64,000 nucleotides of DNA from Candidatus Aminicenantes bacterium (GTDB taxonomy: Bacteria; Acidobacteriota; Aminicenantia; Aminicenantales; UBA4085): assembly GCA_026393855.1 (NCBI GenBank), contig JAPKZJ010000068.1, positions 1 through 64,000 of the forward strand. Reading direction: 5' to 3'. Every line of letters starts with the position of its first letter. Position 1 is the first letter of the stretch. Below are positions 2 through 55,944 of this stretch, piece after piece. The notes under the pieces are model-generated. The model was not told the DNA's origin. It did no database searches and was given only the letters and a program-made list of their open reading frames with translations. Made by a program: the position numbers and the translations under genes.

Positions 2-271
2 CCCGACCTGATCGCTTCGCTCGAACAAGGCAAAGAAGAGGTCGTCCGGATCCGCTTCGAGCCGCCGGCCGACGTGGCCGTGGGCGACTACGAGCCCAAG
101 CTCAAGACCGAGTGCAGCGCCGACAACCGCAAGGTCGAGTCCGAGGACAAGATCGTCCGGGTCCACGTGGCCTCCAAGACCAACGTCCTGGGCATCGGCC
201 TGCTGGTCCTGCTCCTGGTCGGGCTGCTGGTCGGAGTCGTGGTCTTCGGCATCAAGCTGACCCGGCGGTGA
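2..271 (+). CDS. C-terminal part of a membrane-anchored NEW3-domain-like protein (5' end outside window)
   Basis: The reading frame is open from base 2 and ends at TGA 269-271, giving the last 89 residues of a larger protein. The visible part is a beta-rich stretch with alternating charged and hydrophobic residues, then one strong transmembrane helix (about the last 25 residues, rich in Leu/Val/Gly) and a short basic tail (KLTRR). This layout resembles the C-terminus of NPCBM-associated NEW3-domain membrane proteins, which are often encoded beside ABC-2 permeases. The permease array starts 23 bp downstream, so it is probably the first visible gene of that operon. The family call rests on the tail and context only. 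Confidence 0.55.
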   Translation, partial: PDLIASLEQGKEEVVRIRFEPPADVAVGDYEPKLKTECSADNRKVESEDKIVRVHVASKTNVLGIGLLVLLLVGLLVGVVVFGIKLTRR

Positions 272-294
272 AGCCCGGCCCAAAGGAGAACGCC

Positions 295-1746
295 GTGTTC
301 AAGACCATCGTCCGCAAGGAGCTGCTGGAGAACATCCTCAGCTACCGGTTCCCGATGTTCTTTCTGATCACCGCGGTCCTGATCCTCGTCTCGATCTATG
401 TCCACAGCCTGGACTATGACAAGCAGGTTCGCGACTACAGCGAACAGGTCCGGCTGGCGCAGGAGGAGCTGGGTGCCTCCCGGATGTCGGACTTGTTCAT
501 GGGGCGGATCAAGGTCCGCGGCTTCCTTCCGCCCGTCCCGCTGTCCATCCTGGCCGCCGGATTCGAGACCTCCCTGCCGAGATACTACGACTTCGACCCC
601 GAGGGGCCCAAGCCGGGACCTTCCTCGAGCGGCGAGGAATCCATCCTCTCGGTCTTTGGCCGGCTGGACTACCTCTTCATCATCCAGATGGTGGTCAGCC
701 TGATCGTGCTCCTCTTCGCCTCGGACCTCATCGCCGGAGAAAAGGAGATGGGAACCTTGCGGGCGACCCTAGCCAACAGCGTGCCGCGCCACACGGTCCT
801 GATGGGCAAGCTGACGGGCGGGTTCCTGACCGTCTGGCTCCCCTTCACCGTGGTCTTCGTCCTGGGCCTGATCGTGCTCGGCTTGCTGTCATTTCCCCTG
901 ACCTCCGGCGACTACCCGGCCCGCCTGCTGGCGGTCTTCCTGGCGACGACCGTCTTCCTGCTGGTCTATTACGCCTTGGGCCTGATGGTCTCGGCAAGCT
1001 CGGCCCGCTCCCGCACTTCGCTGGTGGCCGTTCTGCTCGTCTGGATCGTCTTCCAGCTCGTCTCGCCCCGCCTCAGCGACATGTTCGCGGCCGTCGTCCA
1101 TCCGGCCCGGACCGAGACGGTCGTCTCGATGCAGAAGTCGCTGGCCGTGAAGACGATCGACCGGGAGAGGGCGATCGCCTTAGGGACCGAGTACGTGGCC
1201 CTGTTCGGGCCGCCGCCGGCGAACAACCAGCCGGCTCCGCCCCACCCCGAGGACAAGCAGAAGGAGTATGACGCCTTCCAGGCCGATTGGGACGCCCGCG
1301 TCCGCGACCTCAAGGCCTCCCAGCTGCGCGACATCGAGGTCGCCTTTCAGCGGGAGAAGAGCCGCCAGCGCCGGCTGGCCGCCGGCTTCTCGCTCCTCTC
1401 GCCCAGCGCCGCTTTCTCGCGGCTCGTCACCGACCTCTGCGGGACCGGCGAGCTCGACCGGGCGCGCTACGACCAGTCCGTCCTGGACCACCAGCGCTCC
1501 ATGGACGCCGCCCTCTATCAGTACGTCCAGAAGCATACCCTGCTGTTTCCCACGGGCGGATCGAGCAGCTCGTCCAGCATCACCAAGATGGTCGAAATGA
1601 AGACGCTGCCGGCCTTCAACGTCCAGAAGGCCCGGCTCGGCGAGGCCTTGGCCGCCAACGCCGGCAGCCTGATCTCGCTGGCCTTCTGGCTGATCGCGCC
1701 TTTCGCCCTGGCCTATGTCCGCTTCCTGAAGTACGACGTAAGGTGA
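295..1746 (+). CDS. ABC-2 type permease, paralog 1 of a tandem array
   Basis: A 483-residue membrane protein of the NosY/COG1277 type with large extracytoplasmic loops, similar in architecture to DUF3526 permeases. The GTG start at 295 is chosen because AAAGGAG precedes it and the N-terminus then matches the other paralogs (T-I-V-R-K-E then S-Y-R-F). One helix lies near residues 20-38, a soluble loop follows to about 125, four or five helices lie between about 125 and 265 with a GEKEMGTL motif, a second loop carries an SP...CGTG motif, and a last helix ends in the shared FLKYDVR tail. It should form the membrane part of an exporter driven by a separate ATPase; the substrate is unknown. The next gene starts 4 bp after the stop. 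Confidence 0.85.
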   Translation: MFKTIVRKELLENILSYRFPMFFLITAVLILVSIYVHSLDYDKQVRDYSEQVRLAQEELGASRMSDLFMGRIKVRGFLPPVPLSILAAGFETSLPRYYDFDPEGPKPGPSSSGEESILSVFGRLDYLFIIQMVVSLIVLLFASDLIAGEKEMGTLRATLANSVPRHTVLMGKLTGGFLTVWLPFTVVFVLGLIVLGLLSFPLTSGDYPARLLAVFLATTVFLLVYYALGLMVSASSARSRTSLVAVLLVWIVFQLVSPRLSDMFAAVVHPARTETVVSMQKSLAVKTIDRERAIALGTEYVALFGPPPANNQPAPPHPEDKQKEYDAFQADWDARVRDLKASQLRDIEVAFQREKSRQRRLAAGFSLLSPSAAFSRLVTDLCGTGELDRARYDQSVLDHQRSMDAALYQYVQKHTLLFPTGGSSSSSSITKMVEMKTLPAFNVQKARLGEALAANAGSLISLAFWLIAPFALAYVRFLKYDVR

Positions 1747-1750
1747 TCCG

Positions 1751-3217
1751 ATGCTCGGAACGCTGATCCGGAAGGAAATCCACGAAGCCCTGTTGAGCTT
1801 TCGCTTCCTATTCGGGGCCCTTCTCTGCCTGGTCTTGATCCCCCTGGGCGTCTTCGTCAGCAGCAAAGAATATGAGCAACGGCGCATTACCTATCAGGAG
1901 TCGGTCCGGCTTTATACGGAGCGCACCAGAGGAGAGGTGTCCACCGCCATGCAAGCCGAAGGCTTTCGGCCGCCGTCGGCATTGGGCGTGCTGTCGCTGG
2001 GCCTGGAAGCGTTTCTACCGAACAAAGTCACGACTTCCCCGGACGGCGACTTCCGAGTGGCCAAGGAGATGGAGACCGGAAACCCGGATTCGCTCCTCTT
2101 CGGCAAAGTCGATCTGCTGTTCAACATCGGCTTCGTCCTTTCGCTCCTCGGCTTGATCTTCACCTTCAACGCCATCTCCGGCGAGAAAGAGAGCTCCGCG
2201 CTCCGCTTGATCATGACCAATGCCGTGCCCCGCTGGCAGATCATCGCGGCGAAATTAATCGGCAACGGCTTCGTGCTGATCATGCCCTTCCTCGCATCCG
2301 TTCTGATCGGAGTCTTGATCTTGAGCCTGTCGGGAGCGGGAGCCGTCTTTTCCGGGCCGTTTCTGCCGTCGCTGGCCGTCGTGATCGCCGTCTCGCTGCT
2401 GTTCATCCTGGCCATGTGCAACCTCGGGCTGCTCATCTCGACGCTGACCCATCGGTCGATCACTTCGATGATTATCGCCTTTTTCGTCTGGACGGTGCTT
2501 GTCCTCTCCTGGCCCCGCATCAGCCCGATGATCGCCACGATGCTGGCGCCGGTGAAATCGCAACAAGTCCATCTGGCCGAGAAGACGATGGTCCGCCAGG
2601 CCGCCGAGCGAGATCTGGACAGCGCCAGGCGGACGCTGTTCGATCGCATTGTCGTGAACGAGCTTGGCCTGAGCCTGGACCGGCTCAAGACCGAATCATC
2701 GCCCCGGGCGGCCAAGGCCAAAGCCGCGTTCGGGGCCGCCCGGGAAGGGCTTGAGCGCGCGTCTCAAGAGCGTCTGAGGAGCCAACTCGACAAGCTCGAC
2801 CGCGAATACATGAACCGGCAGAAAGCCCAGTCGACTCTGACCCGCAACATCTCCCGCCTTTCACCCGTGACGAGCTTCGCTTATATCGTCAGCGAGGTTT
2901 CCGGGACCGGGTCTCTGGAGATGGAGAACTTCTGGGAGAATAGTCGACGCTTCCAAGGCCAGGTCGCCGCTCGGCTCTACAGCCAACAGCGCCATGAATG
3001 GTACGGATCCGCGGCCGGGCCGGGGGCTTGGCGGGAAGACTACGATGCGCCCGGATTCGACGCCTCGAAGGAGCCTGTCCCGCAGATGATTTACCAGCCC
3101 GCGTCCTTGGACAAGGCCCTGCAGCGAGAATGGCCGGATATTCTGTTGCTCTGCCTTTTCAACCTCGTCTTTTTCGCCGCGGCGTATGTTTCGTTCTCCC
3201 GATATGACGTTCGATAA
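1751..3217 (+). CDS. ABC-2 type permease, paralog 2
   Basis: A 488-residue permease built like its upstream neighbour: N-terminal TLIRKE...SFRF motif, a first helix near residues 20-38, a soluble loop to about 120, a helix cluster with GEKESSAL, a second long charged loop with RLSPVTSF and SGTG motifs, and a last helix ending in the SRYDVR tail. The start ATG lies 4 bp after the previous stop, and the stop is followed by AAGGAGG serving the broken ATPase gene. It probably dimerises with another paralog and couples to an ABC ATPase. No residue visible here points to a substrate. Confidence 0.85.
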   Translation: MLGTLIRKEIHEALLSFRFLFGALLCLVLIPLGVFVSSKEYEQRRITYQESVRLYTERTRGEVSTAMQAEGFRPPSALGVLSLGLEAFLPNKVTTSPDGDFRVAKEMETGNPDSLLFGKVDLLFNIGFVLSLLGLIFTFNAISGEKESSALRLIMTNAVPRWQIIAAKLIGNGFVLIMPFLASVLIGVLILSLSGAGAVFSGPFLPSLAVVIAVSLLFILAMCNLGLLISTLTHRSITSMIIAFFVWTVLVLSWPRISPMIATMLAPVKSQQVHLAEKTMVRQAAERDLDSARRTLFDRIVVNELGLSLDRLKTESSPRAAKAKAAFGAAREGLERASQERLRSQLDKLDREYMNRQKAQSTLTRNISRLSPVTSFAYIVSEVSGTGSLEMENFWENSRRFQGQVAARLYSQQRHEWYGSAAGPGAWREDYDAPGFDASKEPVPQMIYQPASLDKALQREWPDILLLCLFNLVFFAAAYVSFSRYDVR

Positions 3218-3232
3218 TAAAGGAGGCTTTCC

Positions 3233-3849
3233 ATGACGACGCCAATCCCCATTCTTAAGGCCGACGACCTGTCCAAGCGCTACGAGGACGGCGTCCTGGC
3301 CCTCGACCACCTGAACCTGACCGTCCGGGCGGGCGAGGTCTACTGTCTGCTGGGCGCCAACGGCGCCGGCAAGACGACCACGATCAACCTGTTCCTGGGG
3401 TTCATCCCGCCGACGACCGGGGTCTGCACCATCAACGGCATTGACGTCAACAAGGACCCCCTGGAGGCCAAAAAGCACGTCGCTTTCGTCTCCGAGAACG
3501 TCATGCTCTATGGCAACTTCACGGCCCGCCAGAACCTGGATTTCTTCGCCAAGCTGGGCGGCAAGCCCGACTCAAGGACGCCGCGGCCATTCTGCTGGAC
3601 GAGCCGACCTCGGGCCTCGACCCCAAGGCGGCCGAGGAGTTCCAGGAGATCCTGCACGAGCTGAAGGCCGAGGGCAAGGCCATCCTGATGTCGACCCACG
3701 ATATCTTCCGGGCCAAGGAGATCGGCGACCGGGTCGGGATCATGAAGGAGGGCCGCCTGGTCATGGAGCGGACCCGCGAGGAGCTCCAGGTCGAGGATCT
3801 GGTCAAGATCTACATCGACTACATGAAGTCCGAGCCGCTGACCGCCTGA
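3233..3849 (+). pseudogene. ABC transporter ATPase with internal deletion and frameshift
   Basis: From ATG 3233 (perfect AAGGAGG ribosome site) the frame encodes a normal ABC ATPase start with Walker A GANGAGKTT (about residues 38-46) and continues to GGKPD at about 3571. The coding signal then jumps to another frame, which carries Walker B ILLDEPTSGLDP, the D-loop, the switch histidine (STHD) and a normal end at TGA 3847-3849. Compared with the intact paralog at 9734-10450, about 40 residues are missing, including the YSKGMRQ signature that contacts ATP. The protein should be inactive as it stands. A real deletion and an assembly collapse cannot be told apart here; nothing suggests a programmed frameshift, since sequence is lost. 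Confidence 0.85.
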
Positions 3850-3907
3850 GGCGGGCGCCCTCGCTCCCGCCCCGCCGCCGACGCCGCGCCCCGTTCCGGA
3901 GTCCGCC

Positions 3908-3976
3908 ATGCTGAAAACCATTCTCCGCAAGGAGCTGCTGGAGAACATCCGCCGCTACCGCCGAGTAAAATTATGA
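3908..3976 (+). pseudogene. 22-codon N-terminal stub of a deleted ABC-2 permease
   Basis: ATG 3908 starts MLKTILRKELLENIRRYR, the N-terminal signature shared by all permeases of this array, but the frame stops at TGA 3974-3976 after 22 codons. The stop overlaps the start codon of the next permease (ATGA, 3973-3976). The stub is best read as what remains of another array member after a deletion. It may still be translated and couple translation into the downstream gene. Confidence 0.7.
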
Positions 3977-5439
3977 GCGGCAAACGCGATCGCGATCACA
4001 CGTTCCGGGCGATCTTCCGCAAGGAGCTTCTCGAAGGCTTCATCACGCGGCGGTTCCTCGCCGTGCTCATCCTGTGCCTGATCGTCTTTCCCGTGGGCAG
4101 CTATATGAGCCGGCGCGACTACCAGTCCCGCCTCCAGAATTTCCAGGAGGCGCAGCGCCTCTACGAGAGCGCGAAAAAGACGGTCGGCGACATCCTCTTC
4201 AAGCCGGGCGGGGCGAAGGCGTTGCGCGCGCCGTCCGGCCTCAGCTTCCTTTCGACCGGGCTCGAGATCGTTCTGCCCGACGCGGCCGAAACCGTGGCCA
4301 AGTTCAATTCGTCCGCCGCGGAGATGCGCCTGACCAACACCCAGGGCCTCGACAACCTCTACGGCTTCTTCCACGGGCCGCTCGACTTTTCTTTCCTCGT
4401 CACCGTCGTTATGACCTTCCTGGCCTTGGCCTTCTCCTACAACGCCGTCTCGGGCGAGAAGGAGAGCGGCACGCTGGGCCTGATGCTGTCGAACTCGGTC
4501 CTGCGCTCGCGAATCGTCACGGCCAAGGCCGCGGCCCAGTTCCTGATGCTGGCCGTGCCGTTCCTGGCCGGCGTGGCGCTGAGCCTGGCGCTCGCCCCGC
4601 CCCCGGCCGCGGCGGCCGGCGCGGCCTCGCCCTGGCCGGCCGTCCTGACCGCCGTGGCGTTCTCGCTGCTGACCATCGACGTCTTCTTCAACCTGGGACT
4701 GCTCGTCTCGAGCCTGACCCGCCAGGCGGTCACGTCGATTGTCGTCCTCCTCCTCGTCTGGACGGCGCTCTTCGCCGTCGTGCCGCGGCTCAGCGTCATC
4801 GCCACGCGCCTCCTCGCCCCGGCGCCGTCGGAACAGGCCTTCGGCCAGGAAAAGTTCCGCATCCGCCTGGCCAACGAGAAGGCCTGCGAGGCCGAGGTCG
4901 ATGCGCTCATCAAGGCTAATCCCATCCCCCGGGACCGCGACACTATCGGCCTGGAATGGCAGAAATTGACCGCGGATTTCCGGGCCAAGCAGGACGCCAT
5001 CCGGGCCAAGTACCAGAGCGACCTCGCGGCCGAGATCGGCAAGGCCCGCCAGGCGTACGAACGGAAGCGCGATGCCCAGATCAAGACGTCGATGCTGGTC
5101 TCCCGGATCTCCCCGGTCAGCTGCTTCGTCCGGCCCATGGCCGAGATCGCCGGCACGGGGTGGCTCGAATACAAGCGCTTCTCCGAGGCGGTGGACCGGT
5201 TCCTGGGCGCGCTGAACGACAAGGTCTACAGCAAGAACCAGTTCACTTCGATGGAGGGCGGCGGCGTAATCCGCTTCACCGGCAAGGACACCGACCCGGC
5301 GCCGCGGATGCCCGATGTCCGCATCCCGTTCGGCGACGTGGCACGCGACGTGCTGCCGGACTTCGTCCTGCTTCTCCTCTTCAACGCGCTCTTCTTCGCG
5401 GGGGCGTTCGTCGCCTTCCTACGATACGATCCCAGGTAG
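3973..5439 (+). CDS. ABC-2 type permease, paralog 3
   Basis: A 488-residue permease with IFRKELLEG...RRF near its start, a first helix at about residues 25-43, a long soluble loop, a helix cluster with GEKESGTLG, a second charged loop with SRISPVSCF and IAGTG motifs, and a final helix ending in FLRYDPR. The ATG overlaps the stop of the 22-codon permease stub, so translation is probably coupled. Its N-terminus (MSGKRDRDHTF) is longer and more charged than in the other paralogs, so this start may have been recruited after the upstream deletion. Substrate unknown. Confidence 0.83.
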   Translation: MSGKRDRDHTFRAIFRKELLEGFITRRFLAVLILCLIVFPVGSYMSRRDYQSRLQNFQEAQRLYESAKKTVGDILFKPGGAKALRAPSGLSFLSTGLEIVLPDAAETVAKFNSSAAEMRLTNTQGLDNLYGFFHGPLDFSFLVTVVMTFLALAFSYNAVSGEKESGTLGLMLSNSVLRSRIVTAKAAAQFLMLAVPFLAGVALSLALAPPPAAAAGAASPWPAVLTAVAFSLLTIDVFFNLGLLVSSLTRQAVTSIVVLLLVWTALFAVVPRLSVIATRLLAPAPSEQAFGQEKFRIRLANEKACEAEVDALIKANPIPRDRDTIGLEWQKLTADFRAKQDAIRAKYQSDLAAEIGKARQAYERKRDAQIKTSMLVSRISPVSCFVRPMAEIAGTGWLEYKRFSEAVDRFLGALNDKVYSKNQFTSMEGGGVIRFTGKDTDPAPRMPDVRIPFGDVARDVLPDFVLLLLFNALFFAGAFVAFLRYDPR

Positions 5440-5454
5440 GGCCGAGGTGACACT

Positions 5455-6909
5455 ATGAGACATACTCCCTTCGGCACCATCTTCCGGAAAGAGCTCCTCG
5501 AAAACATCCGCAACCAGCGCTTCCTTCTGGCGTTGGGTCTGTGCGTCATCTTGATCCCGCTCGGGTTCGCCGTCCAGTACACGGACTACGCGGCTAAGGA
5601 TGCGGCCTACCGGGATGCGGTCCGGACCTTCGAGGAGGGCCACAAGATGCTGTCCGACTTCATGCAGAGCGCCTCGATGTTCCGGCCCCCGTCGCCTCTG
5701 ACCCCGCTCTCGGCCGGGGTCGAAGCGCTGCTGCCGACGTCGATCGACACTGTCGGCTCCGTCGGCGGGAACGGGCCCACGCTCGGCTATGCCAACACGG
5801 GCGGCCTCGGCGATCCCTTCCGTTTTCTCTATGGCCCGCTCGATCTGGCCACGATCGCGGCGGTCGTCCTGTCGATCCTGGCCGTGCTCTTCACCTTCAA
5901 CGGCGTGAGCGGCGAAAAGGAGCGCCGGACGCTGGCCCAGGTTTTTTCGAATTCCGTCCCGCGATCCACGCTCATCACGGCCAAGATGGGCGCGGCGTTC
6001 GTCCTGATCGCAGCCGCCTTCCTCGTCGGGCTGCTTCTCGGCGCACTGACCCTCGCCCTTCAGGGCTTCGAGGTCTGGGCCAAGACCGCCACCCTCGTTC
6101 CGTTCCTGATCGCGGCGGGGCTGTCGCTGGTATACATCTTCGTCATGGTCAATCTGGGGCTGCTCGTCTCGACGCGCTCCCGCAGCTCGCTCTCGGCCAT
6201 TGTGACCCTGGTTATGGCTTGGGTCGCCTTGTTCATGCTGGTGCCCAAGGCCGCGATCATCGCCTCCAAGGTCGCCCGGCCGGTCAAGTCGCAGCAGGTC
6301 GTGGACCTCGAAAAGGGCCAGGCCCGCGCCCAGCTGGAGAAGGAGGGCGACGGCGAGATCGACAAGCTGCGCAAGACGATGCCCGGCATCAAGGACATGA
6401 CTATAGACGCGTTCTTCAAAGCCCAGCGCGGCAAGAACCCGCTCATCGACGAGTACCAGAAGAAGCAGGACGAGATCCAGAGCTCATCCCGCGAGCGAAT
6501 CGACGCGGAGATGGCCAAGCTCGACGCCTTCTACGGGACGCAGCGCGACGGCCAAACCCGGCTGGCGCGGAATTTATCGCGGCTGTCGCCGGTCAGCTGC
6601 TTCCTCCACGGCGTCACGGAGATCGCGGGCACCGGGCTGGCCGAGGTCGGCCGGCTGAAGGAGAACAAGAGGGCGTTCGCGATCCTTCTCGAGAACGAGA
6701 TCAGCCGCAAGATGAAGATGCTCCGTTTCGGCAACTTGGACATGAGCGACTTCGACCGCGAGACGCCCGCGCCCAAGCTCGTCTATCGCGAGGGCACGCT
6801 GCGCGACGCGCTGCCGGGCGTCTGGCCGGACATGGCCCTGCTTGTGTTTTACGGCATCTTGTTCTTGGCCGGGGCCTACGTCTCGTTTCTGAAGTATGAC
6901 CTGAGGTAA
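5455..6909 (+). CDS. ABC-2 type permease, paralog 4
   Basis: A 484-residue permease. The N-terminus has TIFRKELLENI...RF, the middle has GEKERRTL within a cluster of four or five helices, the second soluble loop has LSRLSPVSCF and IAGTG, and the last helix ends FLKYDLR. It lies 15 bp after the previous stop with GAGG upstream of the ATG. The two paralogs on each side share the same order of motifs, so tandem duplication explains the array. It should work with an ABC ATPase at the cytoplasmic membrane; what it moves cannot be read from the sequence. Confidence 0.85.
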   Translation: MRHTPFGTIFRKELLENIRNQRFLLALGLCVILIPLGFAVQYTDYAAKDAAYRDAVRTFEEGHKMLSDFMQSASMFRPPSPLTPLSAGVEALLPTSIDTVGSVGGNGPTLGYANTGGLGDPFRFLYGPLDLATIAAVVLSILAVLFTFNGVSGEKERRTLAQVFSNSVPRSTLITAKMGAAFVLIAAAFLVGLLLGALTLALQGFEVWAKTATLVPFLIAAGLSLVYIFVMVNLGLLVSTRSRSSLSAIVTLVMAWVALFMLVPKAAIIASKVARPVKSQQVVDLEKGQARAQLEKEGDGEIDKLRKTMPGIKDMTIDAFFKAQRGKNPLIDEYQKKQDEIQSSSRERIDAEMAKLDAFYGTQRDGQTRLARNLSRLSPVSCFLHGVTEIAGTGLAEVGRLKENKRAFAILLENEISRKMKMLRFGNLDMSDFDRETPAPKLVYREGTLRDALPGVWPDMALLVFYGILFLAGAYVSFLKYDLR

Positions 6910-6933
6910 GAGAGGGCAAAAAGGAGACGGATC

Positions 6934-8181
6934 ATGCTCGGCACCATCGTAAGAAAAGAGATCACCGCCAACCTGCTGAGCTATAAGTTCTTCATCGTCA
7001 TCCTGCTGGCCTCGGTCCTGATCTTCACCTCGCTATTCGTCATGGGCCGCGACTACAAGGCCCGCCTGGCCGATTATCAGCTTAACCGGCCGGCGGCCGG
7101 CGATCCGACCGCCGTCAGGCCCCCGAATCCGCTCTCGATCCTGGCCAAGGGGCTGGACGAGTCCATCTCTCGCTCGATCGACATCGGAGCCACCGGCTTC
7201 AACGTCCGATCCGGCCAGAAATCCGGCAACGTCGTCTACGGGTTCTTCCCGGCCCCGGACTTCGTCTACATCGTCAAGCTGGTGATGTCGCTCGTCGCCC
7301 TGCTCTTCGGGTTCGACCAGATCAGCCGAGAGAAGGAGGACGGGACTCTCAAGCTGGCGCTGTCCAACGCCGTCTCCCGCTCCTCCCTTCTGGCCGGGAA
7401 ATGGCTGGGGAATTTCCTCAGCCTGGCCGCCCCCTTCACCCTCGTCACCGGCCTTGGCGTCGCCCTGATCGGCCTGGACCCCGCGATCCGGTTTTCGGCC
7501 GGGCATCTCGGCCGCCTGGCCGGCCTCCTCGGCTTGAGCCTTATCTACATCGCCCTGTTCCTGAGCCTGGGGTTCCTCGTCTCCGCTCTGACCCAACGCT
7601 CGGCCTCATCCCTGGTCGTCCTCCTCCTCCTCTGGGCAGGACTGGTCTTCGTCCTGCCCAACCTGGGGACGCTCGTAGCGCGCCAGATCGTCCAGATGCC
7701 ATCGACCAAGGCCTTGAGCGAGAAGCGCCAGCAGATCTGGACGAGCGAAATCCTGAAGACTTATACCCAGACGGGCGGGTGGAATCAGGAGACCTGGGAT
7801 GAACGGATCCTCAGCATGAATCGGGAGTTCGACCGCCTGGAGGAGGATTACGGCCGCCAAGCCGCGCGCCTGGTGCGGTTGAGCCAGACGATCAACCGCC
7901 TCTCGCCGGCCGCCGGCTTCGTCTACGCCGCGACGGACATCGCCGGCACGGGGATCGACGAAGATACCCGGGTCAAGGAAGACGTTGTCCGCTACAAAAA
8001 CCAGATCATCGACGACATCATCCGGAAAAAACGGCCGTTCCCGGCCTTCTCCTACCGCCCCCGCTCGGTGGGACAGGCCCTGGCCGAGGGCGGACTGATC
8101 GACATCGCCTGGCTTGTGGCAGCTGCCGTCATCGCGTTTGGCGCCGCCGCCGTTGCGTTGCGTCGCTACGACGTCCGATAA
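6934..8181 (+). CDS. ABC-2 type permease, paralog 5 (short form)
   Basis: A 415-residue permease, about 70 residues shorter than its neighbours because both soluble loops are reduced. It keeps the N-terminal TIVRKE signature, a first helix near residues 20-38, REKEDGTLKLALSNAV in the helix cluster, INRLSPAAGF and IAGTG in the second loop, and a last helix ending in RRYDVR. AAAAGGAG precedes the ATG by about 8 bp. The shorter loops suggest a different extracytoplasmic partner or role, but that is inference. Confidence 0.85.
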   Translation: MLGTIVRKEITANLLSYKFFIVILLASVLIFTSLFVMGRDYKARLADYQLNRPAAGDPTAVRPPNPLSILAKGLDESISRSIDIGATGFNVRSGQKSGNVVYGFFPAPDFVYIVKLVMSLVALLFGFDQISREKEDGTLKLALSNAVSRSSLLAGKWLGNFLSLAAPFTLVTGLGVALIGLDPAIRFSAGHLGRLAGLLGLSLIYIALFLSLGFLVSALTQRSASSLVVLLLLWAGLVFVLPNLGTLVARQIVQMPSTKALSEKRQQIWTSEILKTYTQTGGWNQETWDERILSMNREFDRLEEDYGRQAARLVRLSQTINRLSPAAGFVYAATDIAGTGIDEDTRVKEDVVRYKNQIIDDIIRKKRPFPAFSYRPRSVGQALAEGGLIDIAWLVAAAVIAFGAAAVALRRYDVR

Positions 8182-8193
8182 GAAGGAAAAGCC

Positions 8194-9627
8194 ATGTTCG
8201 CGACCATCGTCCGCAAGGAAATCCACAACCACATCCTGTCGTTCCGTTTTTTGGTCACGGCGCTTCTTCTCCTCATCGTCATCCCGGCGACGGTCCTCGT
8301 TCTAACCAACGACTACGTCCGGCAGCTGGACGATTATTCCCGCCGCCAGGTCGAGATCGAGCATTACCTTCAGCGCTACGCCCACTTCAACAGGCTCGGG
8401 AACATCATCACGCCCACCCAGCCGCCCGTCCCGTTCATGACCATGGTCCGGGGGCTGTCGGCCGACGTCGATATGAGCTCCTTCCGCAATGATCCCCTCC
8501 CGATCGTCTTCCCCTTTCTCGATCTGACGTTCATCGTGGCTATTCTTTTCAGCCTGGCCGCTCTCGTCTTCAGCTACGATTCCGTCTCCGGGGAGAGGGA
8601 GGACGGGACGTTGAAGCTGATGCTGGCCAACGGCGTACCGCGGGCCAAGATTCTGCTCGGCAAAATCGTCGGCAGCACGGCCACCCTTTTAATCCCCTTC
8701 CTGATATCGACGATCGCCGGCCTGTTCATCGTCCTCCTCAACCCGCGGGTCGGCTGGAAGGGGGCGGATTTCGGCGCCTTGGCCGTGCTCCTCGTCGGGG
8801 TCCTCCTCTACATCGGCTTGTTCGTTACGCTCGGCACCCTGATCTCCGCCCGGCACCGCTCGAGCGCGGCCTCGATCATGACCTCGCTTTTCGTCTGGGT
8901 CCTCATGGTCCTCGTCATCCCCAACTTGAGCCCCTATGCCGCTTCGTTTTTCCGGCCCGCCCCATCCCGCCTCAAGATCGAACGGGAGGTCTTCCGGCTG
9001 ACGCAGGATGAACGAGACGTGCTCGGCCGCCAGTTGGCCAAGGCCAAGACCGACGTCGTGCTCAAGGGGCGCCCCCTCCTCTCCGGAGTGGAACGGATGT
9101 CGGAAAAAGACGTCGCGGACGCGATCCGCAAGGATCCCGAGTTCGCCGCGGCCTATAGCCTTTACCGGAAGGCGAGCCAAGAAGGCTGGGACGAGGCCAA
9201 CGCCAGGCAGTCCGCCAAGGCGGAGGTCCTTCAAAAAGAGCTCGATCGCCGGGAAAAGGCCCAAACCAAGCTCGCGGTGGAGCTGTCCATGGCTTCCCCC
9301 CTGGCCGATTTTACTTATCTGGCCACCGATCTCTCCAATACCGGCATGAGGAACCAGCGCCGATTCGATACGCTCCGGCAGGGCTGGTGGCGGATCTACG
9401 GGGACTATCAGGATCGACGCCTGGAAGAGCTGAAAAAAGCGAATCCGACCGCGGATGCATGGAATATCGCCGCCGATGTCCGCGACATGCCGCGCTTCCG
9501 TTACACGGAAGAATCGCTGGCGGCCCGGCTCAAGGGCATTTTGGCTCCACTGGCCGTGCTGATGATCATGACCGTGGGGCTTTTTATCGGCGCGTTCGTC
9601 TCGTTCATCCGTTACGACGCACGCTGA
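8194..9627 (+). CDS. ABC-2 type permease, paralog 6
   Basis: A 477-residue permease, last of the + strand array. It has TIVRKEIHN...SFRF at the N-terminus, GEREDGTLKLML in the helix cluster, a second soluble loop in which the conserved segment reads SMASPLADF and SNTG (so the glycine of GTG is replaced), and a final helix ending in FIRYDAR. It starts 12 bp after the previous stop behind AGAAGGAA. The array ends here; the next intact genes run in the opposite direction. Confidence 0.85.
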   Translation: MFATIVRKEIHNHILSFRFLVTALLLLIVIPATVLVLTNDYVRQLDDYSRRQVEIEHYLQRYAHFNRLGNIITPTQPPVPFMTMVRGLSADVDMSSFRNDPLPIVFPFLDLTFIVAILFSLAALVFSYDSVSGEREDGTLKLMLANGVPRAKILLGKIVGSTATLLIPFLISTIAGLFIVLLNPRVGWKGADFGALAVLLVGVLLYIGLFVTLGTLISARHRSSAASIMTSLFVWVLMVLVIPNLSPYAASFFRPAPSRLKIEREVFRLTQDERDVLGRQLAKAKTDVVLKGRPLLSGVERMSEKDVADAIRKDPEFAAAYSLYRKASQEGWDEANARQSAKAEVLQKELDRREKAQTKLAVELSMASPLADFTYLATDLSNTGMRNQRRFDTLRQGWWRIYGDYQDRRLEELKKANPTADAWNIAADVRDMPRFRYTEESLAARLKGILAPLAVLMIMTVGLFIGAFVSFIRYDAR

Positions 9628-15484: not shown

Positions 15485-15513
15485 GGGCCGGTCGGAAGAC
15501 CGGCCCTTTTTTT
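15485..15513 (+). terminator. Rho-independent terminator
   Basis: A perfect 9-bp stem (GGGCCGGTC / GACCGGCCC) with a GGAA tetraloop is followed by seven T, 21 bp after the stop of the gene ending at 15463. Confidence 0.93.
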
Positions 15514-15518
15514 GTTCA

Positions 15519-15799
15519 CCTCCCATCTTCGGGAAACGCGGCTAGGGATATCGGCCCGGCGGCTTCGGCCTCTTCTCGCCTTTTCCCACAGCTCTCTTCG
15601 GCGCCTCGGAACTGCGCATTCCAGACCGCCCGGTCCTGGAGATCACCCACTCCCATTCGATTCCGTCAGATGGTAGCGTGCTCAAACAGCCCTCGGCGGC
15701 CGTTGGCTTCCCTCAGAGAGCTATGGAAAAAGGCGCCGGCCTCGCAATTTCGCCGTTAGCCGATACCCCTAGCCGCGTTCATTTCCCGAAGTTGGGAGA
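15519..15799 (+). repeat. Palindromic MITE-like element, copy A
   Basis: The left end CTCCCATCTTCGGGAAACGC continues GGCTAGGGATATCGGC, and the right end is its inverted complement with few mismatches and a 3-4 nt gap, giving terminal inverted repeats of about 36 bp. Inner segments also pair (CCTTTTCCCACAGCTCTCT against AGAGAGCTATGGAAAAAGG). No reading frame of note lies inside. Close copies occur at 50102-50492 and 55553-55843 and a degraded one at 22235-22403. It fills the gap between two convergent genes. Confidence 0.85.
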
Positions 15800-15816
15800 T
15801 TATCCTTAGGACGGGA

Positions 15817-16377
15817 TCAGGGCCCGAATTTATTGAACCAGGCGATCTCCTCCAGCGGCTTGCGCACGCGGTCTTTGGCCGGCCGGCTGGCGGGGTAGCC
15901 CAGCGCGAACAGCGACACGATTTTGTATTTGCGGGGGATGCGGAATTCTTTGCGGGCCGCCCGCATGTTGAACCAGCCGATCCAGCACGTCCCCAGCCCC
16001 AGTTCTTCGGCCTGCAGGACGAAATGCTCACCGGCGATGCCGAGGTCGAGCATGAAGAACGGCACGCCCTGAATCTGTTTGCCGAGGCGGTTGGCCAGGA
16101 TGTCGAGCTTGGCCAGGACCAGGACCAAGACCGGGGCCTGGGCGGCGAACTGGGTCATCCGATAGATCCCGGAGAAGGCCGCCTTGGCCAGTCGATCCTT
16201 GGCCTCGGAGTCATCGACGACCAGGAATCGCCAAGTCTGGGCATTCTCGGCCGAAGGCGCCACCCGGGCCGCTTCCAGACAAGACAAGATTTTCTCCTTC
16301 TCGACCGGCGTCGGCAGGAAGCGGCGGATGCTCCGCCGTTGTTCGATCAGGGCTTGGAAGGGGGTCTTTTCGGACAT
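15817..16377 (-). CDS. Nitroreductase-family FMN protein
   Basis: A 186-residue protein of the nitroreductase fold, which uses FMN and NAD(P)H to reduce nitro compounds, quinones or similar acceptors. The N-terminal RRSIRRF motif and the APSAENAQTWRF segment are the usual FMN phosphate and isoalloxazine contacts, and GLGTCWIGWFN near residue 130 is typical of the family, as is the ALGYPA segment. ATG 16377 is chosen with GGAG about 10 bp upstream; an earlier in-frame ATG has no support. It is convergent with the DUF4412-like gene across repeat copy A. The physiological substrate is unknown. Confidence 0.85.
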   Translation of the reverse strand: MSEKTPFQALIEQRRSIRRFLPTPVEKEKILSCLEAARVAPSAENAQTWRFLVVDDSEAKDRLAKAAFSGIYRMTQFAAQAPVLVLVLAKLDILANRLGKQIQGVPFFMLDLGIAGEHFVLQAEELGLGTCWIGWFNMRAARKEFRIPRKYKIVSLFALGYPASRPAKDRVRKPLEEIAWFNKFGP

Positions 16378-22234: not shown

Positions 22235-22403
22235 TCGAGCGTTTTCCCCATCTCCGGGGGATGGTCAAGCGTCACGGTATCCGGCCAACGGCGAAACCGC
22301 GCGGGTTTAGCGTTTTTTGCGAACCTCTTCGAGGGAACCTGGCTTTGCAGGCGCCGAGGGATGTTTGAGCACGTGAGGATCATCGGGAACGAGGTGGGAG
22401 AAC
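22235..22403 (-). repeat. Degraded, inverted copy D of the palindromic MITE-like element
   Basis: Read on the - strand, the segment has CACGTGCTCAAACATCCCTC, CGGCGCCTG, GCCAGGTTCCCTCG, GGTTTCGCCGTTGGCCG and CCCCGGAGATGGG in the same order as the right half of copies A-C. The left half is not recognisable. It lies in the 307-bp divergent gap 22167-22473; outside it I see only the promoter listed next. Confidence 0.7.
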
Positions 22404-44899: not shown

Positions 44900-44998
44900 G
44901 CTGTTTTCTTAAATTGGGCGAAGAGCATGGGGGTGAGCGCCGATGCGGTCGCTTCGCAGTCCTCGTAACGACCGGCGCCTCGCCCGTCGTCGCGAGGG
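44900..44998 (+). repeat. Element-end remnant plus REP-like hairpin (copy 1)
   Basis: AAATTGGGCGAAG matches the right end of palindromic element copy C and is followed, after a spacer, by the hairpin CCTCGTAACGAC ... GTCGTCGCGAGG (44961-44997). The same order occurs at 55834-55944. It lies in the 456-bp gap 44831-45286. Upstream of it the gap is AT-rich without a gene. Confidence 0.7.
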
Positions 44999-45015
44999 CG
45001 GAAATTTCGCCCAAG

Positions 45016-48958: not shown

Positions 48959-48962
<4 letters not shown>
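47421..48962 (+). CDS. lnt: Apolipoprotein N-acyltransferase
   Basis: A 513-residue inner-membrane enzyme that adds the third acyl chain to lipoproteins. About six N-terminal helices (residues 10-215) precede a nitrilase-like domain, and a last helix lies at the C-terminus. The catalytic triad is Glu273 in WPELS, Lys339 in YAKMHLVPFGEYIP and Cys389 in SPICYEIAFP; spacing is as in E. coli. ATG 47421 is chosen because upstream residues belong to the overlapping frame of the SPOR gene. prfB starts within its stop (ATGA). Confidence 0.95.
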
Positions 48963-50089
<1,127 letters not shown>

Positions 50090-50101
50090 TTATTCAGGTC
50101 T

Positions 50102-50492
50102 TCTCCCATCTCCGGGAAACGCAGTCCGGGGTATTGGCCCGGCGGCTTCGGGCTCTTCTCGCCTTTTCCCACAGCTCGTCTCGGCACATGCAGCCGAAGG
50201 CGCTAACCGGCTCCCTCCTTGGAAGGAGGGGCTGGGGAGGTGATATCAATAAAATCAAAAGTGTTCGGCGCCTTCGGAATTAAGGATCTTACGGAACTGC
50301 GCATTCGAGATCATCCGGTCTTGGAGATCACCCACTCCGTTTCGATTTCGTTAAATAGTCGCATGCTCAAACAGCCCTCGGCGCCTGGCCAGAGCCAGGT
50401 TCCCTCAGAGAGTTGTGGAAAAAGGCGCCGCCCTCGCAATTTCGCCGTTGGCCAATACCCCTAACCGCGCTTATTTCCCGGAGATGGGAGAA
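50102..50492 (+). repeat. Palindromic MITE-like element, copy B, with nested insertion
   Basis: Terminal inverted repeats TCTCCCATCTCCGGGAAACG (left) and its inverted complement at the right end, with the same interior as copies A and C. About 110 extra bases lie between CTCGGCACATG and GGAACTGCGCATT. They are bounded by CCGAAGGCGC / GCGCCTTCGG and contain the perfect palindrome CCCTCCTTGGAAGGAGGG (50213-50230). The right end overlaps the last codons of mazG. The element fills the convergent prfB-mazG gap. Confidence 0.85.
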
Positions 50493-51307
50493 GCACCTTT
50501 TTTAATTTCCTCCCAGACGGCGTCCATCTCGGCCGGCGTGGCGTCGCGGAGCGCCCGGCCGCGGGCGGCGAAATCCTTCTGAAGCTCCAGGAACCGGGCC
50601 ATGAACTTGGCGTTGGCCCGGCGCAGGACGAGCTCGGGGTTGGCCTTCGCCAGGCGGGCGGCCTGGGCCAGGGCGAACAGGGCGTCCCCGATCTCCTCCT
50701 CGATCTCGCCGCTTCGGCCGCCGGCCAGAGCGGCGTCGATCTCGTCCAGCTCCTCCCGGACCTTGGCCAGGGCATCGCCGGCGGCCGGCCAATCGAAGGC
50801 TTCGTGGGCGGCCCGCTGGCCGATCTGAAAGGCCCGCAGCAGCGAGGGCGCCGATTCCGGGATGCCCTCGAACGGCGAAGTCCGGTTCTTCTCTTTGCGC
50901 TTTTCCCGGTTCCAGACAACGAGGACCCCGGCGGCGTCCTGCACCGGCGGGCCGCCGAAGACGTGGGGATGGCGGCGGATCAGCTTCTCGTTGATGCCGT
51001 CCAGGGCTGCGGCGGCGTCAAAGTCCCCTTTCTCCTCGAAGATCCGGGCCAGGAAGACGACCTCCATCAGGACATCCCCCAACTCCTCGGCCAGGGCCTT
51101 GGGATCGCCCTGGTCCAAGGAGTCGACGGCCTCGTAGACTTCCTCCAGGAAATAGCCGGCGATGGACTTGGCGTCCTGTTCCCGATCCCAGGGGCATCCG
51201 CCGGGGCCGCGCAAAGCCGCCAGGATATCGACCAGGCGCTGAAACTTGGGGCCGGCGCCTTCGCCGGGATTCCGTGTTACGATGTTTTCTCGTTCCCTGA
51301 CTTCCAT
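50471..51307 (-). CDS. mazG: Nucleoside triphosphate pyrophosphohydrolase MazG
   Basis: A 278-residue protein with two all-alpha MazG domains. The first has GGCPWDREQDAKSIAGYFLE, EEVYEAVDSLDQGD and EELGDVLMEVVFLARI, the second has EELDEIDAALAGG and EEEIGDALFALAQAARLAK, each with the E-E-x-x-E and E-x-x-D metal ligands. It hydrolyses NTPs to NMP and pyrophosphate, limiting abnormal nucleotides or (p)ppGpp effects. ATG 51307 is the best start. Its last residues, ASPISGK, and the stop codon come from the terminal inverted repeat of element copy B. Confidence 0.93.
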   Translation of the reverse strand: MEVRERENIVTRNPGEGAGPKFQRLVDILAALRGPGGCPWDREQDAKSIAGYFLEEVYEAVDSLDQGDPKALAEELGDVLMEVVFLARIFEEKGDFDAAAALDGINEKLIRRHPHVFGGPPVQDAAGVLVVWNREKRKEKNRTSPFEGIPESAPSLLRAFQIGQRAAHEAFDWPAAGDALAKVREELDEIDAALAGGRSGEIEEEIGDALFALAQAARLAKANPELVLRRANAKFMARFLELQKDFAARGRALRDATPAEMDAVWEEIKKGASPISGK

Positions 51308-53164: not shown

Positions 53165-54447
53165 AGCTCCTCGTCCGAGGCGGCCGGGTCGTCGACCCGG
53201 GAACCGCCGTCGACGGTTGCCGCGATGTCCTGATCGAAGACGGCCGCATCGTCGCGGTCGAACCCCGGATCGAGGCCGGGGAAGCCCTCCTGATCGACGC
53301 CTCCGGGCTCGTCGTCGCCCCCGGGTTCATCGATATGCACGTCCACTTGCGCGAGCCCGGCCAAGAGCACAAAGAGACGATCGAGACGGGGGCTTGGGCG
53401 GCGGCCGCCGGAGGATTCACCTCGATCTGCGCCATGCCCAACACGAATCCGGTCAACGATCGCCCCGAGATCACCAGGCTGATTCTGGCCCGGGCGGCCG
53501 GCAAAGCCGTTGTCAACGTTTTCCCCATCGCCGCCATGACGCTGGGGCTTCGGGGAATGGAGCTCGTCGATATGGCCGCCCTGGCAGCCGCCGGGGCCGT
53601 GGCCTTCTCCGACGACGGCCGCTGCCTCCAAAACGCCGCCCTGATGCGGAGGGCCATGGAAACCGCCCGCGGCCTGGGGAAGCCGATCACGGACCATTGC
53701 GAAGACGCCTCCCTGGCCGGATCCGGAGTCATGCACGAGGGGCCTTGGGCGGCCCGCCTCGGCTTGTCGGGAATCCCGGCCGCCGCCGAGGACGTCATGG
53801 TCGCGCGGGACGCCATCCTGGCCGAGGCCCTGGGCGCGCCCGTCCACATCGCCCACTTGAGTACGGCCGGATCGGTCCGGATCGTGCGCCAGGCCAAGCG
53901 GCGGGGCGTCCCGATCACCGCCGAGGCGACCCCCCATCATCTGACCCTGACCGACGCCGCCCTCGAGACCGGGGACGCCCGCTTCAAGATGAACCCGCCG
54001 CTTCGCGGCGAGGAGGACGTGGCGGCGCTCCTCGAGGCCGTGGCGGACGGGACGATCGACGTCCTCGCCACCGACCACGCGCCCCACACGACGGCCGAGA
54101 AAGCGGTTGGGATCGCCGCCGCCCCATTCGGCATCGTCGGCCTTGAGACGGCGGTCCCGCTCCTGCTCGACCGTCTCGTCGGCCGGAACCTGATCGGCCT
54201 GGCCCGTTTCGTGGCCCTCTGGTCGACCCGACCGGCCGAGATCCTCGGCCTCCGGAACAAAGGCCGCCTGTCCGCCGGCGCCGACGCCGACCTGACGATC
54301 CTCGATCTGGACCGTTCCGTCGTCGTCGATTCCGGCGCTTTCCATTCCAAGAGCCGCAACACGCCGTTCGACGGCTGGGCCCTGCGGGGCGCCGCCGTCC
54401 GGACGATCGTGGGCGGACATCCCGTTTTCCCAAAGGAACAGCCATGA
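53161..54447 (+). CDS. pyrC: Dihydroorotase (class I)
   Basis: A 428-residue amidohydrolase that closes carbamoyl-aspartate to dihydroorotate in UMP synthesis. The metal ligands include His60 and His62 in DMHVHLREPG; GGFTSICAMPNTNP, AFSDDG, TDHCEDA, HIAHLSTAGSV, EATPHHLTL and the catalytic Asp in LATDHAPH follow in the expected order. Start TTG 53161 overlaps pyrR, and the stop overlaps rnc (ATGA). Aspartate carbamoyltransferase (pyrB), which usually lies between pyrR and pyrC, is absent here. Confidence 0.95.
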   Translation: MKLLVRGGRVVDPGTAVDGCRDVLIEDGRIVAVEPRIEAGEALLIDASGLVVAPGFIDMHVHLREPGQEHKETIETGAWAAAAGGFTSICAMPNTNPVNDRPEITRLILARAAGKAVVNVFPIAAMTLGLRGMELVDMAALAAAGAVAFSDDGRCLQNAALMRRAMETARGLGKPITDHCEDASLAGSGVMHEGPWAARLGLSGIPAAAEDVMVARDAILAEALGAPVHIAHLSTAGSVRIVRQAKRRGVPITAEATPHHLTLTDAALETGDARFKMNPPLRGEEDVAALLEAVADGTIDVLATDHAPHTTAEKAVGIAAAPFGIVGLETAVPLLLDRLVGRNLIGLARFVALWSTRPAEILGLRNKGRLSAGADADLTILDLDRSVVVDSGAFHSKSRNTPFDGWALRGAAVRTIVGGHPVFPKEQP

Positions 54448-55547
54448 GAATCTTCGGAAAGCCAAAAGCCAAGCCGTCGCCGGCCGAACCCGGCCTGCCC
54501 CCCGCACCCTCGACGCTCCCGGATCCTCCCAAGCCGGAACCCAATCCCGCTACGCCCCGCATTCAGTCAGGGCCGCGCCCGGAGCTCTCGGGCCGGCAAC
54601 GGAGTCAGCAAGGCCAACCCCACCCCCAGGGACAATCCCAGGGCCGGGGGGGGAGGAGTCCGCAGCGAAACCAGTCGGGCGGTCAACCCCGGCCTCGACG
54701 GCGGGGAAAATCGCCCCAAGGGCAGCGGCCGCCGCAGGCCCTGCCCGAAAACCCCGTCCAGGCTAAGCCCGCGCCGCCGCCGCCCGCGGCGCGCCCGCCC
54801 CGCCAGGCTCCGGTGCCTCGGACCACCCCGTTTGAAGAGCAGATCCATTATTTCTTCCGGAGCAAAGACCTTCGCGAGCAGGCCCTGACCCACAGCTCCT
54901 ATGCCTACGAGAACCAGGGTCAATGCCGCGACAACGAGCTGCTCGAGTTCCTGGGTGACTCGGTCATCGGGCTCATCACGGCCGATTACTTCTTCTCCAA
55001 CTACCGCGACACTACCGAGGGCGACCTGTCCAAGCTGAAGTCGTCCGCCTCGTCCACGGTCGCCTTGGCCGAGTTCGCCAAGCAGATCCACCTCGACAAT
55101 CATATCCGGCTGGGCCGGGGCGAGGAGCGCAGCGGCGGCCGCCACAAGTCGAACATCCTGGCCGACGTCTTCGAAGCCGTGATCGGGGCCATCTACCTGG
55201 ACGGCGGATTCGAGGCCGCCCGCTACTTCTTCCTGCCTCTGATCGAGTCGACCTTCCAAAAAGTTCAGACGATCGGTTACACCGTCGACAATTACAAGTC
55301 CGCGCTCCAGGAATACCTCCAGAAGGAGGACCTTCCCTCGCCCAGCTACAAAGTGGTCTCCTGCACCGGCCCCGACCATGACCGGGTCTTCACCGTCGAG
55401 GTTTTCGCCAACCGGACCTCGCTGGCCAAGGCCAAGGGGGCGTCCCGGAAAGCGGCCGAGCAGAAAGCCGCCGAGACCGCCTTGAAAAGCTTCCTGGGAC
55501 GAAAAATCAAGTCGCTGACCCCGGAGACGTTCATCGTCGAGAAATAA
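54444..55547 (+). CDS. rnc: Ribonuclease III with a long disordered N-terminal extension
   Basis: A 367-residue protein; most bacterial RNase III proteins have about 225-250. Residues 1 to about 128 are low-complexity, rich in Pro, Gln, Arg, Gly and Ser (GQPHPQGQSQGRGGRSPQR), likely disordered and nucleic-acid binding. The catalytic domain (about 129-285) has LTHSSYAYEN, the signature NELLEFLGDSVIGL and ILADVFEAVIGAIYLDGG, with metal-binding Glu and Asp. The C-terminal dsRNA-binding domain (about 292-360) has SALQEYLQKEDLPSPSYKVV and ASRKAAEQKAAETAL. ATG 54444 overlaps the pyrC stop; no alternative internal start has a ribosome site. Confidence 0.93.
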   Translation: MRIFGKPKAKPSPAEPGLPPAPSTLPDPPKPEPNPATPRIQSGPRPELSGRQRSQQGQPHPQGQSQGRGGRSPQRNQSGGQPRPRRRGKSPQGQRPPQALPENPVQAKPAPPPPAARPPRQAPVPRTTPFEEQIHYFFRSKDLREQALTHSSYAYENQGQCRDNELLEFLGDSVIGLITADYFFSNYRDTTEGDLSKLKSSASSTVALAEFAKQIHLDNHIRLGRGEERSGGRHKSNILADVFEAVIGAIYLDGGFEAARYFFLPLIESTFQKVQTIGYTVDNYKSALQEYLQKEDLPSPSYKVVSCTGPDHDRVFTVEVFANRTSLAKAKGASRKAAEQKAAETALKSFLGRKIKSLTPETFIVEK

Positions 55548-55552
55548 ATTCA

Positions 55553-55843
55553 TCGCCCAATTCCGCGGAGGGCAGTTCGGAGTATCGACCCGGCGGCTTC
55601 GGGCTCTTCTCGCCTTTTCCCACAGCTCCCCTCGGCGCCTCGGAACTGCGCATTCAAGATCGTCCGGTCTTATAGACCGCCCACTCCATTTCGATTCCGT
55701 TAGATGGTCGCGTGCTCAAACAGCCCTCGGCGCCTGGCCGGAGCCAGGTTCCCTCGGGGAGTTATGGAAAAAGGCGCCGCCCTCGCGATTTCGCCGTTGG
55801 CCGATACCCCGAACCGCCCGAGTCTCCCCGGAATTGGGCGAAG
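55553..55843 (+). repeat. Palindromic MITE-like element, copy C
   Basis: Same interior as copies A and B (GGCTTCGGGCTCTTCTCGCC, CAAACAGCCCTCGGCGCCTG, TGGAAAAAGGCGCC, TTTCGCCGTTGGCCG). The terminal inverted repeats have drifted together: CGCCCAATTCCGCGGAG at the left and CTCCCCGGAATTGGGCG at the right. It starts 6 bp after the rnc stop and lies between convergent genes. Confidence 0.85.
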
Positions 55844-55892
55844 ATACGAAAAATACGGGGGCATCGACGTCGGCAAAAAAGCGCCCGGGGGC

Positions 55893-55944
55893 AGTCGTTT
55901 CGTAGTCCTCGTAACGACCAGCGCTTTGCCTGTCGTCGCGAGGG
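55893..55944 (+). repeat. REP-like hairpin, copy 2
   Basis: GTCGTTTCGTAGT precedes the hairpin CCTCGTAACGAC ... GTCGTCGCGAGG (55907-55943), matching 44947-44998. It abuts the stop codon of the - strand AI-2E transporter gene and could form the 3' end of its mRNA. Confidence 0.75.

Follow-up and report, generated by a model that had tools for sequence, protein, structure and literature searches.

An ISL3-type MITE family of Candidatus Aminicenantes carrying a putative structured RNA core conserved across an order

The common view of bacterial MITEs is that they are remains of insertion sequences (ISs), with an interior of little meaning and a short evolutionary life. The repeats described here resemble ERIC, BIME/REP, Nezha, and other bacterial MITEs in being intergenic, hairpin-forming, noncoding, and apparently mobilized in trans, but their ends are different, no sequence relation to those families was found, and their core is common to more than one end family. 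With ISL3-family insertion sequences (PF01610) they have in common terminal repeats beginning GGWTC and an 8-bp AT-rich target duplication, whereas they contain no transposase gene and none of the ISL3 elements examined is the source of their interior. Like HEARO RNA (RF02033) and the IscB omega RNA, the interior described below resembles a long, structured RNA that a mobile element carries, in many cases without the protein, but it has no covariance-model match to them and no nuclease gene nearby. The RUP and BOX repeats of Streptococcus pneumoniae are small, have paired terminal repeats and target-site duplications (TSDs), depend on a transposase acting in trans (IS630-Spn1 for RUP), form strong RNA folds, and are over-represented between convergent genes (PMC3049150). 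In all of this they are like the Aminicenantes element; however, RUP and BOX are confined to S. pneumoniae and close streptococci (PMC3049150), whereas the Aminicenantes core is found in 30 of an order's 35 genera, contains invariant loops, and is joined to several unrelated sets of ends. Our literature search found no paper on Aminicenantes repeats or RNAs.

The window, that is, the whole stretch of DNA analyzed, comprises 64 kb of contig C68 from a 3.68-Mb Candidatus Aminicenantes MAG that is 95% complete. It contains three full-length palindromic elements, copies A, B, and C, which are mutually homologous (84 to 89% identity in blocks), each with long terminal inverted repeats (TIRs) and a fold over its whole length, in agreement with the preliminary description. 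The fold of copy A spans the entire element at -142.7 kcal/mol (z = -9.25), a value equaled by 0 of 200 dinucleotide shuffles. The elements as first delimited are real, but their true ends lie about 4 to 8 bp further out, because the ISL3-type terminus (GGWTC...) had been left out. The extra length of copy B comes from a nested 108-bp repeat, and the degraded fourth copy reported from a divergent gap is indeed a truncated one, here called D. The features are as follows.

15488 to 15512, plus strand: hairpin and T-run resembling an intrinsic terminator, belonging to the upstream gene and beside the left end of copy A (sequence GGCCGGTCGGAAGACCGGCCCTTTTTTT)
15513 to 15805, minus strand (the core strand): copy A, whole element, ends placed by match to the ISL3 TIR GGWTCWTCTCCC
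15514 to 15555, plus strand: left TIR of copy A, pairing with 15759 to 15805 (self-match 85%; fold)
15565 to 15743, minus strand: conserved structured core of copy A (covariance model R1, 147.4 bits)
15759 to 15805, minus strand: right TIR of copy A (self-match; TIR end motif)
15817 to 16377, minus strand: nitroreductase gene, right neighbor of copy A (Pfam)
22243 to 22398, plus strand: truncated copy D, without its right half, between divergent genes (nhmmer 79 bits; R1 48 bits)
48959 to 50089, plus strand: peptide chain release factor gene (PCRF and RF-1 domains), left neighbor of copy B (Pfam)
50097 to 50497, minus strand: copy B, whole element including the nested repeat (empty site G002 C39:13846-13866)
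50148 to 50435, minus strand: core of copy B, broken by the nested repeat (R1, 118 bits)
50186 to 50293, strand not assigned: nested repeat inside copy B, CCCTCCTTGGAAGGAGGGG... family (sequence comparison)
50471 to 51307, minus strand: MazG-type pyrophosphohydrolase gene, right neighbor of copy B, its 3' end overlapping the end of the element (Pfam)
54444 to 55547, plus strand: ribonuclease III gene, left neighbor of copy C, its stop codon abutting the element (Pfam)
55539 to 55546, strand not assigned: left TSD of copy C, GAGAAATA (7 of 8 bases identical to 55848 to 55855)
55547 to 55847, minus strand: copy C, whole element (empty site G002 C39:19026-19058)
55599 to 55784, minus strand: core of copy C (R1, 151.6 bits, E 9e-58)
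55848 to 55855, strand not assigned: right TSD of copy C, GAAAAATA (sequence)
55945 to 56964, minus strand: AI-2E family transporter gene, right neighbor of copy C (Pfam)

Within the window, copies A, B, and C each lie between convergent genes, as originally noted; a clear TSD is lacking at copies A and B.

The source genome holds about 60 copies of the element. Sequence searches with copy A and with one of its arms each return more than 40 matching places, and a profile search returns at least 62 merged places, a few of them weak; these counts cover 0.86 Mb plus fetched loci and are lower bounds. Many contigs of MAGs end inside element copies. The TIR end motif GGWTCWTCTCCC, allowing at most one mismatch, occurs 54 times genome-wide compared with 0 times for a reversed control pattern, so the TIR ends are not a product of chance. 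ISL3 transposons of relatives carry the same terminal repeats as the window copies (GGWTCATCTCCC), the MITE ends being identical to these complete ISL3 ends over the first 12 to 13 bases. Such PF01610 elements are present in genomes G041 (L131, GGATCATCTCCCATTTAGTTGG), G064 (L179, with an exact 8-bp TSD, ACATTTAA), and G005, which belongs to the same family as the source genome (L182, TCATCTCCCGATTAGTTGG). A second ISL3 lineage (G035, G047, and G042) has the ends GGTTCTCTTCCATWTTGTGTGGGT, which are also the ends of the MITEs in G041 (isolate 8_1_Jan_SF_Bin49, same loci); the transposases of G035 and G047, the two of this lineage that were aligned, are about 30% identical to the first lineage. 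Across the order, ISL3 transposases occur in 22 of 94 genomes. A PF01610 search found none in the source genome or in G002, a species of the same genus, which together hold more than 60 element copies, and no pair of TIR ends in the source genome faces each other at IS length, as a complete element would require.

Insertion has left its traces at both ends of the copies. Among 40 copies of the source genome, the 8-bp flanks are identical at a fraction of 0.619, compared with 0.385 for permuted pairs and 0.519 for the best of 2000 permutations, with an excess that peaks at exactly 8 bp. These flanks are 87% A+T, whereas the window is 36% A+T. In G002, the syntenic stretch presents clean empty sites for copies B and C, with 19 and 31 bp where the source genome has about 410 and 400 bp. 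The empty sites and the 8-bp duplications therefore establish insertion; which transposase acted we infer. Short, intergenic, multicopy, and without a transposase gene, with the TIRs of a complete ISL3 element, 8-bp TSDs, and empty sites in relatives, the repeats are nonautonomous ISL3-family elements (MITEs). An ISL3 transposase supplied in trans and now absent from the MAG would have moved them; mobilization in trans, or by an ISL3 partner since lost from the genome, is our inference from this pattern. The preliminary description had proposed such mobilization in trans and had suggested looking for, among other things, TSDs and an autonomous IS with the same ends. The TSDs are there, as is the IS in the three relatives named above, but not in the source genome itself.

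The interior includes a feature missed by the preliminary description, a strand-asymmetric core of about 190 nt that is conserved across the order and has invariant loop motifs. Oriented copies have in common the motifs GAGGGAA... and TGTTTGAGCACG, a variable arm of about 58 nt, and the motifs TGCGSAGTTNC and GGCG..AAA. We aligned 34 core sequences (alignment A2), which have 37 invariant columns despite a mean identity of 62%; TTTAG / GTTAAAAA, TGTTTGAGCACG, and TGCGSAGTTNC are invariant or nearly so in all of them. The alignment supports 40 base pairs, 29 of which show double compensatory changes, with 298 double-change cells compared with 92.7 ± 10.7 in shuffled alignments and 52 to 89 in slid controls, and with 91.6% of cells paired compared with 40 to 45% in slid structures, although these pair counts lean towards the structure since it was derived from the same sequences as the alignment. 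In a small internal hairpin (columns 76 to 79 with 88 to 91), all four pairs covary. After control for composition, the core strand folds better than its complement (mean z of -5.9 versus -4.3; 25 of the 34 sequences), which points to an RNA from one strand. Among pairs common to both strands, GU exceeds AC weakly, by 50 to 36, or by 26 to 9 in the trimmed core. Covariation beyond chance thus coincides with conserved loops, the combination by which a structured RNA is recognized. Judged from these sequence comparisons, the element probably encodes the core as a structured RNA, which selection on the proliferating lineage preserves. It would act as a folded RNA when transcribed, would not be required by the transposase chemistry, and would be retained by selection on the proliferating element; a possible benefit is that it makes insertions tolerable, as a compact RNA or a transcript 3' end, or that it binds a factor.

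With covariance model R1, built on this core, matches are found in 54 of the 94 genomes of the order Aminicenantales, representing 30 of its 35 genera, with up to at least 27 per genome among the matches listed. Outside the order, R1 gives one weak match among 396 genomes sampled from the phylum; this lone match (G455 C26:44345-44437, 25 bits, E 3e-7) belongs to a different family within the phylum. When GTDB genomes were scanned with a core pattern, 49 stretches matched, all but two of them from Aminicenantes or from the Acidobacteriota-labeled MAG STD1_136, which shares loci with G002; the two matches in rumen Clostridia are chance-like and fall inside coding-like sequence. Neither the element nor the core has a credible match in Rfam at gathering or permissive thresholds, candidates such as MIR396, STnc470, and RAGATH-28 scoring far below cut-off, and the exact 21-base core pattern is absent from IMG/VR. 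We also rejected the core as a remnant of an ISL3 element, as nine ISL3 loci gave no real core match. No protein recurs beside the copies, where only spurious frames of the element itself do so. The 19-mer at the tip of the short-loop core, TGTYTGAGCGAAGCGAGTT (L254 to L258), is not diagnostic, because it occurs in many unrelated phage contexts: it is present in 60 IMG/VR viral contigs (L293 to L352) in 27 distinct unrelated contexts, apparently far above chance, and appears to be a widespread small hairpin.

The same core is joined to unrelated transposon ends, even within one genome. In G030, five cores are 86 to 97% identical; L255 and L258 bear the second ISL3 end set, L254 has an AAGCATCTCC end, and L257 has TTGTCCCAAAGTGACGTGAT, and flank identity between these end types is 52 to 59%, which is background. 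The variable arm, about 58 nt long in the source genome, is reduced to a GAA-type loop in G030. Copies in RS_12_32 end in AGGTTTTGGGGGATAG. Two end sets are matched to a transposase; those of other genomes, such as TTGTCCCAAAGTGACGTGAT and AGGTTTTGGGGGATAG, have no match among the transposases examined. Core-bearing elements with such unmatched ends include L257 in G030, L088 and its relatives, and L264 to L268 in G006. Automatic flank pairing for end sets in all genomes was noisy and is used here only where the sequence is clear. The ends may have been either swapped or fast-evolving. Some copies have no core: in L155:11357-11484, L056, and L034 it has been deleted between short direct repeats, and the 118-bp copy in L155 retains a perfect 8-bp TSD. 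A copy can therefore persist without the core, which is dispensable once insertion has occurred, if not before. Perhaps it is not needed to transpose either, although slippage after insertion could also produce coreless copies.

We raise only tentatively, as more doubtful than probable, the idea that the core represents a new Aminicenantales-specific class of functional RNA that spreads by taking on ends from several unrelated transposons instead of being inherited along with a single one; if so, selection would act on the RNA as its unit, with the transposon ends as interchangeable vehicles. What the comparison does present is one MITE interior kept across 30 genera, with compensatory changes and invariant loops, while the transposon ends differ. 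Whether folded bacterial repeats have any role is an old question that can now be tested directly, since a specific RNA is predicted, its strand is known, and each genome would have dozens of copies.

The location of the copies relative to genes was analyzed with our own simple codon-scored caller, trained on each genome (0.86 Mb for the source genome). Fifty-three copies of this genome have two callable neighbors: 19 are between convergent, 28 between tandem, and 6 between divergent genes, compared with 8.0, 25.3, and 19.7 expected from AT-rich intergenic 8-mers (p = 4e-6). Copies lie a median of 15.5 bp from a stop codon, compared with 151 bp for background AT-rich sites, and 95 bp from a start codon, compared with 91 bp. 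From these distances and this split we conclude that the pattern is one of 3' ends with convergent enrichment, and not a convergent rule. The convergent location seen in the window thus extends to the genome as a 2.4-fold enrichment that is not exclusive, and it is reversed in two other families of the order, with 8 of 16 copies in G059 and 5 of 5 in G013 between divergent genes. We consider an insertion preference, combined with selection against insertions into promoters and operons, enough to explain the orientation pattern. In this GC-rich genome most AT-rich targets would be intergenic, and any copies that entered promoters or operons would be lost, leaving survivors just after stop codons and hence over-represented between convergent genes. 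The BOX, RUP, and SPRITE repeats of pneumococcus show the same convergent excess and have been read as tolerated parasites (PMC3049150). The orientation pattern that gave rise to the first question is accordingly an ordinary one, like that of other bacterial repeats.

Of the three readings of convergence offered initially, insertion bias and selection against other sites together fit these data; the third holds that the hairpin and its AT-rich flanks are kept as a two-way transcription terminator, ending transcription of both convergent genes. A stable hairpin, AT-rich TSD flanks, and copies that hug stop codons would suit that role, and several convergent copies leave less than 30 bp of other intergenic DNA and hence no room for another terminator. 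Yet copies are not confined to convergent pairs, where only the 19 of 53 lie, and the mostly divergent copies of G059 and G013 argue against a general two-way terminator, as does the lack of a consistent relation between the core strand and the direction of tandem genes. Invariant asymmetric loops would not be needed for termination, copy A adjoins an existing terminator, and the two TSDs of a copy, being identical, cannot supply a T-run for each direction. We find this role distinctly unlikely; it may apply locally but is not the conserved one.

Covariation could also arise without an RNA function, if replication switches template from one arm to the other and so maintains their complementarity. 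Mutation by quasi-palindrome correction is well established, and strong covariation of the outer arms is seen even inside a single genome (27 outer pairs with 63 double-change cells), so that arm-to-arm correction could account for part of the outer-stem covariation. Such correction should, however, erase asymmetric internal loops, and it does not readily explain the three (nearly) invariant loop motifs, the covarying small internal hairpin, or a fold that favors one strand beyond composition; as the source of the whole signal, neutral upkeep of the palindrome seems unlikely. In its general habit, a multicopy RNA that is large, structured, and stand-alone and is borne on transposon ends also recalls HEARO, and the core might have served an RNA-guided nuclease system (HEARO or omega-RNA type) as guide or scaffold before the protein gene was lost. 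That origin is very improbable given that the HEARO model RF02033 has no match in six genomes at E values up to 10, four permissive Rfam scans give no match, no IscB-type RRXRR domain (PF14239) scores above cut-off, and no protein recurs beside the copies. An ISL3-type MITE with a core that would act as a folded RNA kept by selection is the account we favor, with a probability of roughly 0.8.

The window and the element copies contain further repeats. A second family, of the CCCTCGCGGGGACTGTCGAAGCGACGTCC...GCGAAGCGC type, occurs in the window at 44945 to 44999 and 55891 to 55945; these repeats stand alone or are nested at the same spots in many element copies (for example, L024, L025, and L028). 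The repeat nested in copy B (50186 to 50293) belongs to a third, CCCTCCTTGGAAGGAGGGGCTGGGGAGGTG family, is nested in other element copies as well, and in G002 (C157:12920-13212) is repeated in tandem as three units, each about 96 bp long. At 112 to 9627, the window carries related tandem genes with repeated segments (repeat families D5, D6, D8, and D10), probably a run of duplicated membrane or ABC-type genes.
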